A stretch of 37,667 bases of DNA from Planctomycetota bacterium. GTDB lineage: Bacteria > Planctomycetota > Brocadiia > Brocadiales > Brocadiaceae. Numbering within the stretch: position 1 is the first letter of the stretch; the number at the start of each line of letters is the position of its first letter. The stretch covers positions 1 to 37,667 of the forward strand of contig VGXX01000009.1 of the NCBI GenBank assembly GCA_016873155.1, read 5' to 3'. Below the pieces are notes generated by a model. It saw only the letters and a list, made by a program, of their open reading frames with translations, searched no databases and had not been told where the DNA came from. This document shows, piece by piece, positions 442 to 5,407 of the stretch. The position numbers and the translations under genes are program-made.

Positions 442-784
442 TCATGATAGCAATGTACCAAGTTTCTGCAATACCTCCGACACTATTCGAGGTGGTAAGG
501 TACATATCCATTTTGCATCCCGAACACGCCAGTCTAAACTCTTAATCTGATCAGCCAAAATTACTCCGCTCACAGGCAAACCATCAGGCATGAGCACTTC
601 AAAAGGATAACCCTTGATTTGATTTGTAACAGGACACAAAATGGCAAGTTCAACCTTTTCATTTATATATCCCCGGTGAAAGCACCACCGCCGGGCGACT
701 CCCTGCCTGTTCATGACCTGATTGCAGATGCAAGGTAATCCACACGACATCGCCGCGTTGCGGGACGTATCCCTTCTTTACCAT
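442..784 (-). pseudogene. mazF: mazF/pemK-type toxin gene, frameshifted
   Basis: This is an endoribonuclease toxin of the MazF/PemK family, which in intact form cleaves mRNA and is neutralised by MazE. The ATG at 784-782 overlaps the mazE stop (ATGGTAA). The first frame gives a normal MazF start (VPQRGDVVWITL, then GHEQAGSRPAVVLSP) but hits TGA after about 42 codons. The remainder (NEKVELAILCPVTNQ, KGYPFEV, VSGVILADQIKSLDW) lies in the next frame and ends at 442. The two parts join exactly if one A is removed from the A-run on the minus strand at 664-662. Joined length is about 115 residues, normal for the family. Either the toxin is dead or this is a one-base sequencing error. The family call is secure; the inactivation depends on read quality. 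Confidence 0.88.
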
Positions 785-1020
785 ACTTCGCTTCCCATGG
801 CATGACTTGTATCAAATCCAGCATGTCGATTGTCTTTGGTGACTTGCGCAAGAAGTCGTCTGAGAGTCAACTTTGATTTAGGAGCGGCCTCTATCACAAG
901 TTTTCCATCTTCCAGCGACACTTCAACCGGTGAATCCTGTTCCAGCCCTGCTTCATTAGCGAACGATTTTGGAATGCGCAATGCAAGGCTATTTCCCCAT
1001 TTTTGTATACGAGTTTTCAC
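778..1020 (-). CDS. mazE: MazE-family antitoxin (AbrB/SpoVT fold)
   Basis: This 80-residue protein has the hallmark N-terminal swapped-hairpin DNA-binding domain: TRIQKWGNSLALRIPKSFA at about residues 3-21, followed by a PVEVSLEDGKLVIEA strand region. The C-terminal part (about 50-80) would wrap the toxin. MazE binds and inhibits MazF and represses its own operon. The ATG at 1020 is preceded by a strong Shine-Dalgarno sequence (AAGGAGG, 6 nt away). The stop codon overlaps the start of the frameshifted mazF gene, so the two are translationally coupled. The antitoxin frame itself is intact. Confidence 0.92.
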   Translation of the reverse strand: MKTRIQKWGNSLALRIPKSFANEAGLEQDSPVEVSLEDGKLVIEAAPKSKLTLRRLLAQVTKDNRHAGFDTSHAMGSEVW

Positions 1021-1190: not shown

Positions 1191-1838
1191 TTAGTTTAAA
1201 TACCTGACTTCCCTGCTGCCGCTCTCCCGAACGCCCTTGTGGATAATCAGTTTTTTCCCTTGTGATACTCCGGAATTATAGGCATCCTGACAGGTTTTGG
1301 AATACCTGGAAAAGGTTCGGGTACGCCTGGGATTTCTTTGGAGATAAAACTCCTTGAGCCGGGGGTCTCCCTTCCATACCAGTTTTTGTGACGCATTTTC
1401 CACCACCCTGCCTTCCAGTTTATGATAAAAACCTTCTAAGAGGCCGTATATAAAAGTCCTTCGATGCCTGTTCTCCTTGATTTTATTTTTCTCCTGGTAC
1501 TCTGTCCATAAGAGTTCCGGGACGTTTTGAAGATAATGATACACATATTCCGCCATCTCGACATTTTCCGGTGTCCCATAAATTTCCAAAACCCGGCCGC
1601 GCCGGTTTCTATGCTGGTCGTACCCGAACGTCCAGATGGCCTCTACGAAAAAATATTTGCAGAGTATCGCACTGATTATGGACTTCGTGGGGTCTCTCCG
1701 CCCTATTTCACCGATTTGCTTATGAATGTAGTTCCATTTCGCCTGAGTATCCAGGAGCGACAGGTTATGTCTTAATAACAACTCATGGGCCTTAGCCATG
1801 GCTGTCTGGGCCTCGTGTTCATTGGGGTTTTGGGCCAA
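1191..1838 (-). CDS. DUF2786 domain protein, probably the C-terminal part of an interrupted SprT-DUF2786 gene
   Basis: The sequence NEHEAQTAMAKAHELLLRHN matches the DUF2786 core, whose function is unknown. The usual first helix of that domain (ILDKVYKLLALA) is encoded upstream of the only conventional start codon, the TTG at 1838. The reading frame is open back to the TAG at 1883-1881, which is the stop of the SprT-like gene in the same frame. There is no ATG, GTG or TTG between that stop and the domain start. The C-terminal part (about residues 120-215) is very basic. The simplest reading is a former single protein of about 360 residues with a metallopeptidase and a DUF2786 domain, split by an amber codon. 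Translation from TTG would give a domain lacking its first helix. Confidence 0.72.
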   Translation of the reverse strand: MAQNPNEHEAQTAMAKAHELLLRHNLSLLDTQAKWNYIHKQIGEIGRRDPTKSIISAILCKYFFVEAIWTFGYDQHRNRRGRVLEIYGTPENVEMAEYVYHYLQNVPELLWTEYQEKNKIKENRHRRTFIYGLLEGFYHKLEGRVVENASQKLVWKGDPRLKEFYLQRNPRRTRTFSRYSKTCQDAYNSGVSQGKKLIIHKGVRESGSREVRYLN

Positions 1839-1880
1839 TGCCAGCAGCTTGTAAACCTTATCCAGTATCTGGTGGTTTTC

Positions 1881-2273
1881 CTAACTCACGGTGAATCTGT
1901 TTTTGCGCTTTTCCATCCAGATTTGGATGTCACCCGTAGCCGTTGGATCAATTCCCTTTTCCTGGCAAACTCTCTTGAATGCCTCTCCGTGGGGAAGTTC
2001 TTCGCAGATTCCTAAAACTTCCTCCACGTACTGGTGCGCCATTTCATGGCAAAGGACTTCCTGTACGTATTCCCAGGCATACGTCTTGATCAGATGAATG
2101 CTGATGGAGAGACGCCGGTGACAACCGCCTTTCCACTTGCCCAATGCTGTTCCTGAATACGATAGTTCATAGTTTGGGGGGCGCATAGAGTCTTTAAAGT
2201 AATGGAAATTTGCCGTTTTCCAGTCTTCATTCAATTGCCTGATCCACGCGGTTTTTAGCTTGTCGTTTATCAT
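1881..2273 (-). CDS. SprT-like zinc metallopeptidase domain protein
   Basis: This 130-residue protein has the SprT/Spartan-type zinc site: HEMAH at residues 76-80 and a third ligand in PHGEAF (His95). The segment LSISIHLI before it matches the strand that precedes the HExxH helix in SprT domains. Eukaryotic members cut DNA-protein crosslinks; bacterial short forms are mostly uncharacterised. The classical SprT C-terminal zinc ribbon is absent. The frame ends in TAG at 1883-1881 and continues in the same frame into a DUF2786 domain, so this may be the N-terminal half of a split protein. The ATG at 2273 is the only good start; there is no strong Shine-Dalgarno sequence. Confidence 0.82.
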   Translation of the reverse strand: MINDKLKTAWIRQLNEDWKTANFHYFKDSMRPPNYELSYSGTALGKWKGGCHRRLSISIHLIKTYAWEYVQEVLCHEMAHQYVEEVLGICEELPHGEAFKRVCQEKGIDPTATGDIQIWMEKRKNRFTVS

Positions 2274-2475
2274 ACAATGAGATTATCCCTATTATGGTTT
2301 ACATTTCAATGGAAATATGGGAAGTGTTCTCCCTTTCACGGGCGATTTCCTTCGAAAGCCGTGGCGCATTCCCAAGCCTTTCGTCAAGTCCTACTGACAA
2401 GATCGAGAGATCGATGGGGGGAGAAGGGGACAGGTGCTTGATATTATAGCAACATGGTGGATTTGCTTACGCTTA

Positions 2476-2542: not shown

Positions 2543-5407
2543 TTACCACCTCAGCGGTAACTGCCAGGCTTCCTTGAGGTCGTAAATATTCTCGTTGATA
2601 ACGGGTTTTTTGTTTAGACCGTTGATTTTGAGTATCGGTTCCGATGTGACTTTTCCCAATAGTCCCCATGGGATGTCTTTTACTAATGTCTCAAATTGCT
2701 TCTGGTGCTCAGGCCGCACCTCAATGATAAAACGGCTGTTTGATTCAGAAAAGAGAAGGGTGCCGTTTCTGTGAATTTGCCCTTCTGTAACCACCGCAGA
2801 AAGGTTAAGTGTCATACCGTATCCACCGGCAAAGGCCATTTCTGCTGCGGCGACGGCAAGACCTCCTTCTGAGCAATCGTGGCAAGACCTGATGATTCTC
2901 TGTCTTGTTGCCTGAGAAATCGTATTCATGATCTTTTTTCCTAAGACGGCATCTACCTTTGGGACGTTATTTCCCTTGTATCCGTGGAAATGATAGTAAT
3001 GTGAACCACCCAATTCCGGACGGGTGAGTCCAACGAAATATACCAGATTGCCGGGCTCTTTGATATCCATTGATACGGCATTCCGTATGTCTTCCATGAT
3101 CGCAACTGTTGAAATAAGTAAGGTTGGGGGTATTACAATTGTTTCTTTATCAGTGACGAATTCATTGTTCAGGCTGTCTTTCCCGGAGATAAAGGGAGTT
3201 CCATAAGCTACGGCTATATCGTAACAGGCCTGTGCCGACCTTACAAGACTGCCCAGACGATCGGGTTTGTTGGTGTTGCCCCAACAAAAGTTGTCTAAGA
3301 GCGCCACCTGTTCTAAACTTCCGCCAACGGCTATGATTTGACGTAGCGCCTCGTCAATGGCTGATGCTGCCATGTGGTAGGGGTCTATGTCACCATATCG
3401 TGGGTTCATGCCATTTGATACAATAATACCCTTCTTAGATCCCAGTACCGGCGTAACAATGCAGGCATCGCCTGGCCCATCATTGTGGATACCCTGGAGG
3501 GGTTTTAAGACGCTTCCGCCCTGTACTTCGTGGTCATACTGGCGTATAACCCATTCTTTGCTGCAAACATTCCAGGCGGAAAGTATCTTTTTTAAGTCTG
3601 CTCCATAATCTTCTTTTTCTGATAAATTTGGTTCTTCTAAGGTGGGTTTGTGCCACGAGGCTTTCCGTTCCAGTCTGGGAATGCCGTCGTGTAGAAAGTC
3701 CATATCCATTTCGCCAACGATCTGGGAATTGTACGACAAACGCAATATTTTGTCGTTTGTGAATCTTCCAATGACCGTGGCTTCCACATTTTCCGCTTTA
3801 AACAGATGAAGGATATCGTGTTCTTTTTCAGGTGGAACAGCGATTACCATGCGTTCTTGTGCCTCTGAAATCCAGATTTCAGTGTAGGAAAGTCCTTCGT
3901 ATTTAAGGGGCACCTTTTCTAAATTTACCAGAGCGCCGAGGTCTCGACCCATTTCTCCTATGGCAGATGAAAGACCACCAGCGCCGCAATCCGTAATACA
4001 ATTGTACAGCCCTTTGTCGCGTGCCTGTAAAAGGGTATCCAGCAATGCTTTTTCTGTTATGGCATTACCTATTTGTACAGCGCCTCCGGATATCTGTTCG
4101 GATTGTTCATGTAATTCTGCCGAGGAGAAGGTGGCTCCATGAATACCATCACGGCCGGTTCTGCCGCCAACAACGACAATGAGGTCGTTAGGATGGGGTG
4201 TTTTTTGACATTTATCTTTTGGTATAATGCCCACAGTTCCGCAAAAGACGATGGGATTACCGATGTACCGCTCGTCAAAAAAGATAGCGCCGTTTGCAGT
4301 GGGGATGCCCATACGGTTGCCATAATCCCGTACTCCTGCCACAACGCCCTTAAAAATTCTCTTTGGATGCAACACACCTTTAGGAATTTTGTCTTGAGGG
4401 GTGTCTGGCAGCCCAAAACAGAAAACATCTGTATTAAGGATGGGTTTTCCGCCTAATCCTGTACCCATAACATCCCTGATTACGCCGCCAATACCGGTAT
4501 TTGCGCCACCATAAGGTTCGATAGCAGACGGATGGTTGTGGGTTTCTACCTTAAAGCAAATGTTATTCTGGCTGTCGAAATTTATGATACCGGCGTTATC
4601 CTTAAACACAGAGACGCACCATGTCTTGTCGAGTTCACTGGTTGCCTTCATAATGGTGCTTTTTAATAGGTTATCAATTTTAGTTCCATTGAAATCAATA
4701 ATGCCTTTGAATGTTTTATGAACACAGTGTTCTGACCATGTCTGTGCAATGGTTTCAATCTCGACGTCGGTCGGTTCTCGTTTGATGGACTGATAATATT
4801 TTTGAATTGACTGCATCTCTTGTAAATTGAGGGAAAGCTGGCCACTCGTACTTATTTCTTCTAATCGTTTGTTGTCGGCATTTAATAACGGGATGGTCTT
4901 CTTTTTGAAGGAATAGCCGATATTGCCATGATCGTAATTGGGTGTTTCCGGATAGATGAAAATATCTTCTATCTTTGTGTTTGCAAGTAACCTGGTTGCT
5001 ATGATGCGAATTGTTTCAGGAGAGATATCTCCGTTGATGAGATACTTTTGGGCAGTTTTAACGCCTTCTATGTTTATTCCTATATCGCTGAGCGCCTTTG
5101 AAACGGATTGCTCAATAGGGTCCATGACGCCGGGTTTGCGGCTGATTTCAACGATATGATGTCTGAAGTCCGAAGTCCGAAGCCCGGAATCAGAAATTAG
5201 ATAATCTTGGGTAATCGTATCTACTAAAAGCTTTTGGGCAATAGTATCCAGATCGTTTTTGGTTACATTTCCGAAAATGATGTAAGCCTGGCGAACCCTG
5301 ATGTCGGATACTCCAGGGAAACCAAATGTTTCGATTTCTGATCGTAGGTTATTTCCTAAAGGATCAGGGAATTCATTTTTAAAAAACACCTCGATGCGTG
5401 AGTACAT
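2543..5407 (-). CDS. purL: Phosphoribosylformylglycinamidine synthase, synthetase subunit with N-terminal PurS-like domains
   Basis: The enzyme makes FGAM from FGAR, ATP and glutamine-derived ammonia in purine synthesis. The PurL core begins at about residue 190 with TDVEIETIAQTWSEHC (active-site His), then ETHNHPSAIEPYGGANTGIG near residue 290, DCGAGGLSS near 470, and a second ATP-grasp-like half with GGSVLKPLQG and DCSEGGLAVAAAEMA. The first 160 residues contain two PurS-like modules (about 1-72 and 83-155). The 954-residue length lies between small PurL (about 740) and the large fused enzyme (about 1290). No C-terminal glutaminase is present, so a separate PurQ is needed but a separate PurS probably is not. 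The gene starts 7 nt after tyrA and is likely co-transcribed with it. Confidence 0.95.
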   Translation of the reverse strand: MYSRIEVFFKNEFPDPLGNNLRSEIETFGFPGVSDIRVRQAYIIFGNVTKNDLDTIAQKLLVDTITQDYLISDSGLRTSDFRHHIVEISRKPGVMDPIEQSVSKALSDIGINIEGVKTAQKYLINGDISPETIRIIATRLLANTKIEDIFIYPETPNYDHGNIGYSFKKKTIPLLNADNKRLEEISTSGQLSLNLQEMQSIQKYYQSIKREPTDVEIETIAQTWSEHCVHKTFKGIIDFNGTKIDNLLKSTIMKATSELDKTWCVSVFKDNAGIINFDSQNNICFKVETHNHPSAIEPYGGANTGIGGVIRDVMGTGLGGKPILNTDVFCFGLPDTPQDKIPKGVLHPKRIFKGVVAGVRDYGNRMGIPTANGAIFFDERYIGNPIVFCGTVGIIPKDKCQKTPHPNDLIVVVGGRTGRDGIHGATFSSAELHEQSEQISGGAVQIGNAITEKALLDTLLQARDKGLYNCITDCGAGGLSSAIGEMGRDLGALVNLEKVPLKYEGLSYTEIWISEAQERMVIAVPPEKEHDILHLFKAENVEATVIGRFTNDKILRLSYNSQIVGEMDMDFLHDGIPRLERKASWHKPTLEEPNLSEKEDYGADLKKILSAWNVCSKEWVIRQYDHEVQGGSVLKPLQGIHNDGPGDACIVTPVLGSKKGIIVSNGMNPRYGDIDPYHMAASAIDEALRQIIAVGGSLEQVALLDNFCWGNTNKPDRLGSLVRSAQACYDIAVAYGTPFISGKDSLNNEFVTDKETIVIPPTLLISTVAIMEDIRNAVSMDIKEPGNLVYFVGLTRPELGGSHYYHFHGYKGNNVPKVDAVLGKKIMNTISQATRQRIIRSCHDCSEGGLAVAAAEMAFAGGYGMTLNLSAVVTEGQIHRNGTLLFSESNSRFIIEVRPEHQKQFETLVKDIPWGLLGKVTSEPILKINGLNKKPVINENIYDLKEAWQLPLRW

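Follow-up and report, generated by a model that had tools for sequence, protein, structure and literature searches.

Among described proteins, those closest to the one studied here include members of the SprT-like family (PF10263), such as human SPRTN and bacterial SprT. Similar to them, the protein encoded by the fusion gene of this study possesses a SprT-like domain with an HExxH motif and a third histidine residue, and its matches in structure searches included SPRTN. Different from them, its C-terminal part is composed of a DUF2786 and a DUF7168 domain. The score against the bacterial SprT equivalog (NF003421) was 25.5 bits compared with a cut-off of 175, which places the protein outside that group.

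The fusion gene of the window and its homologs

The window, which refers to the whole stretch of 37,667 nucleotides analyzed, derives from an anammox-type bacterium and contains the fusion gene as a joined frame running on the minus strand from 2273 to 1191. All coordinates of the gene given below are on this strand. The frame begins with an ATG at 2271–2273, and its first codons are ATG-ATA-AAC, compared with ATG-xxx-GAT-ATA-AAC in relatives. The SprT-like half (2273–1884; PF10263, E 1.1e-11) consists of 130 codons and is followed by an in-frame amber codon, TAG, as codon 131 (1883–1881), so that half and stop together span 1881–2273. Within this half, HEMAH (2034–2048) represents the HExxH zinc-ligand/catalytic motif, and the histidine of PHGEAF (1989–1991) is the third putative zinc ligand. 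Past the TAG, the frame continues for 229 codons, which encode the DUF2786 and DUF7168 module (1880–1194), and then ends with a TAA (1191–1193). DUF2786 was located at 1758–1868 (PF10979, E 3.3e-14) and DUF7168 at 1323–1703 (PF23771, E 3.7e-21). All three domains scored above their Pfam cut-offs (45 vs. 25.6 bits for SprT-like, 53 vs. 23.9 bits for DUF2786 and 75.7 vs. 25.5 bits for DUF7168). Coordinates and Pfam matches thus confirmed the claim of an earlier note on this DNA that a SprT-like and a DUF2786 domain share one frame split by a TAG. For the part past the TAG, that note named DUF2786 only, to which DUF7168 is now added. The 360 residues that it gave for the joined product hold if the TAG counts as a residue, whereas removal of the TAG leaves 359. 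The split frame is far beyond chance, because both halves align end to end and without gaps to intact relatives of the same length.

A second copy of the gene was identified in the same assembly (G000:C236:37–1113, referred to as the C236 copy), which was 92% identical to the window copy and had no stop. Its presence in the same cell as the window is assumed from binning. The gene was present in 22 of the 33 genomes of the family, and the TAG of the window was the sole stop within any listed copy. A scan of genome contigs revealed 25 intact loci, from Brocadia, Kuenenia, Scalindua and planctomycete bins, all with a sense codon at position 131. This codon encodes Ser in most relatives, and close relatives almost always have TCG. 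For the second copy found in G011, the sequence covers residues 2–124 only and ends there, most likely at a contig end, which makes a mutation an improbable cause. In another genome of the same order, a decayed remnant of the fusion gene was observed with a TAA and short fragments (L158; G374:C42).

Homologs were also found across the phylum. The profile of close relatives matched 46 of 392 sampled Planctomycetota genomes, and most of the matches were near full length. The SprT-like, DUF2786 and DUF7168 domains were all present in each of the 32 aligned Planctomycetota proteins, 19 of which were 34–39% identical to the C236 copy, and the SprT-like match was at E <= 0.001 in every one. Moreover, the two histidines and the glutamate of the HExxH motif (H78, E79, and H82 in L051 numbering) and the third histidine (H97) were invariant across these 32 proteins and are retained in the window copy. 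The SprT-DUF2786-DUF7168 fusion is a widespread protein of Planctomycetota, and seemingly an undescribed one. A literature search, for which subscription papers were mostly out of reach, gave five papers that each name DUF2786 once and no description that pairs SprT with DUF2786, and this bears out the earlier view of the pairing as poorly described.

The model of the C236 protein built with a diverse alignment had a mean pLDDT of 81.7 and a pTM of 0.79. With 30 close relatives only, the pLDDT was 39.5, and it reached 81.7 after distant planctomycete sequences were added. In the model, residues 127–132 (L051 numbering) form a low-confidence linker, and the site of the TAG, residue 133, is one residue past it. 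Among PDB entries, SPRTN ranked first by profile (6mdx, E 5.6e-4), and a PDB sequence search with the close-relative profile yielded no match. The best fold match was also SPRTN (6mdw), with a probability of 1.00 but an E value of only 0.024, followed by jannalysin and selecase, which are small archaeal metallopeptidases.

Origin of the amber codon

The gene in the window is probably a broken second copy of the conserved fusion gene, in which a recent nonsense mutation changed TCG (Ser) to TAG. Among the explanations that the earlier note had offered, this is the one supported by the results of this study, given the intact fusions in the assembly, the family and the phylum and the codon shared by nearly all close relatives. 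As those relatives have TCG, one C-to-A change of Ser codon 131, at the junction of the two parts, would suffice. The window allele would then yield only a 130-residue SprT-like fragment with the downstream half untranslated, and the C236 copy would supply the function. When the window copy was compared with six relatives, pairwise dN/dS of the post-TAG half was 0.07–0.28. Values among intact copies lie in a similar range, which suggests that this half was coding until recently. The TAG aside, signs of decay in the window copy were slight. For instance, its S149N was unique, the residue being the same in all others of 34 sequences, and its H141Y occurred at a residue invariant among close relatives. 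So little decay fits a recent stop and would also fit an artefact.

An artefact of assembly or sequencing, such as the chimeric joining of two copies or strains near codon 131 in place of a gene that is in truth intact, is the main rival to a nonsense mutation and is considered unlikely. The window derives from a single draft bin of 362 contigs (completeness 96.04 and contamination 4.44) that includes two copies 92% identical to each other. In addition, the halves of the window copy have different nearest relatives: the first half grouped with G032, G029 and their kin, with a weak support of 65–67, and the second half with the C236 copy, with a support of 90. A max-chi2 test on the sites that separate these two groups of relatives placed the strongest breakpoint between nucleotides 369 and 426 of the gene (~1848–1905; permutation p 0.0038), which adjoins the TAG at nucleotides 391–393. 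However, gene conversion between co-resident copies would leave the same pattern. Moreover, sites of the two types are mixed past the breakpoint, and the first type is found again near the 3′ end, as is not expected of a single join, and the window copy differs from the C236 copy at 34 of 687 post-TAG sites. From these site patterns, we read the mosaic as gene conversion between the co-resident copies. A chimera, which retains some probability, is the main reason why confidence in the nonsense mutation is no higher.

Readthrough of the TAG, by which the 360-residue protein would still be made, is highly unlikely. Similar to genes in pyrrolysine and other amber-decoding systems, the window copy has an in-frame TAG within an otherwise open, conserved frame, and the dN/dS of its second half is low. 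Different from those systems, neither a suppressor tRNA nor PylS was found, the residue of relatives is Ser, and the TAG is not conserved, as every relative covering the site has a sense codon and none has TAG. No CUA anticodon was detected among the 47 tRNA genes of the assembly (Rfam matches and ARAGORN anticodons; assembly 96% complete), and a PylS search of the assembly reached 23.6 bits compared with a cut-off of 178.15, with sub-cutoff matches in most control genomes too. Furthermore, TAG is a normal stop in the window, where it ends 4 of the 26 open reading frames picked as likely genes, including an accA-like gene. The earlier suggestion of readthrough was thus not supported by tRNA content, PylS search, TAG usage or relatives.

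Synthesis of two proteins, with DUF2786 restarted at an ATA/CTG near codons 136–137 or at the TTG of codon 146, is the least probable of all, because, although the mutation creates a purine-rich TTAGGA 10–13 nt ahead of the ATA/CTG and the DUF2786 half occurs on its own in phage and plasmid relatives, no standard start precedes the first helix, and a start at the TTG would cut into the domain. As the earlier note had observed, there is no ATG, GTG or TTG ahead of this helix; the first one past the amber codon is that TTG (1836–1838), which is within the helix in the model. The rare start codon and the two separate genes with a proper start that the note had considered both found no counterpart among relatives, which are fused in the family, in the phylum and in the contig scan.

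Genomic place and expression of the fusion gene

The fusion gene of the window is located between purL and a mazEF pair. The latter, a MazF/PemK-like toxin and a MazE-like antitoxin, is directly downstream of the broken gene (442–1020, minus strand). PADLOC identified no defence family. purL and the genes around it are collinear among five members of the genus. Besides the window, the sole genome in which the fusion gene was found next to purL was G007, which belongs to another genus; G029 counts for neither side, as its contigs end at this position. Thus, intact fusions, which the earlier note sought at the same locus of other genomes, do exist but mostly at other loci, with a purL-adjacent one clearly in one other genome. 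Homology between loci often stops near the coding sequence, within ~35 nt on its upstream side and 20 nt on its downstream side. Judging from the differing neighbourhoods and from homology that ends near the coding sequence, the fusion gene has evidently changed place several times. One neighbour gene family is common to six genomes and is just downstream of the fusion gene in five. A solo mobile unit, first considered because homology stops near the coding sequence, was toned down as an idea, given that several genomes share the downstream neighbour and hence a common locus. Among distant planctomycete loci, no neighbour was common to more than 4 of 19 loci. Part of the flank of the C236 copy shares 85–88% identity with several members of the genus, a usual level for these species. 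A short repeat, which recurs in near-identical form in many contigs of the genus, was also noted in the flank of the intact copy (L051, ~2940–3045).

A sigma-70-like promoter, TTGAAA-16-GATAAT (2282–2309, minus strand; 10 of 12 matches), ends 8 nt ahead of the ATG of the window copy. Promoter-like sites numbered 4 compared with 2.4 expected, and a sequence similar to that of the window precedes several homologs. The position of the window promoter suggests a leaderless or nearly leaderless mRNA, from which synthesis of the SprT half would continue. In G029, G032 and G010 (L052, L053, L063), ~117–123 bp separate the conserved promoter-like stretch from the start codon. This stretch is absent from the window copy, the C236 copy, G028 and G030.

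Predicted function and comparison with phage proteins

The TAG itself looks like an ordinary mutation, and the conserved fusion family matters more. The intact fusion may plausibly be a protease of the SprT/SPRTN kind that acts on DNA-bound proteins, with DUF2786/DUF7168 as its targeting part, a prediction that we hold tentatively. As such, it would be a zinc metalloprotease that cuts proteins stuck to DNA, and DUF2786/DUF7168, in place of a zinc ribbon or other recruiting modules, would target it to DNA or the replisome. The SPRTN profile and fold matches and the invariant HExxH...H residues point to a protease of this kind, and guidance to DNA is suggested by two results from phages. First, the second half of the fusion matched phrog_421 over nearly its whole length (E 1.7e-30), and its fold matches were phage DUF7168/DUF2786 models. 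Second, in Bacillus phage AR9 the DUF2786 gene AR9_g005 adjoins genes annotated as SbcD-like, DprA-like and DnaB-like. It is more doubtful that the fusion would represent an undescribed class of Planctomycetota DNA-targeted repair protease with a phage-type recruiting module, of whose two parts the amber copy would be a natural separation, with a free SprT domain as its remaining product. There is almost no literature on DUF2786, and a phylum-wide SPRTN-like fusion hints that this domain, common in phages, acts on DNA or DNA-bound proteins.

Similar to the second half of the fusion, the phage proteins phrog_421 and AR9_g005 represent the DUF2786/DUF7168 module. Different from the fusion, the phage and plasmid DUF2786/DUF7168 records examined have the module alone, with no detectable SprT part, and a search of phages and plasmids for the fusion returned either the DUF2786 half only or a weak SprT match alone. 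Microcystis phage Me-ZS1 showed a longer weak match and was rejected as a fusion, since its protein of 235 residues is too short. Two phage proteins in BFVD, A0A8E4UXR3 with 329 residues and A0A6J5R8L4 with 380, cover most of the fusion model in alignments and may be phage fusions. A further comparison is with the intact fusions of other Planctomycetota. Different from the window copy, no listed full-length copy has an internal stop; similar to it, they all possess the same three domains, in the same order and at a similar length.
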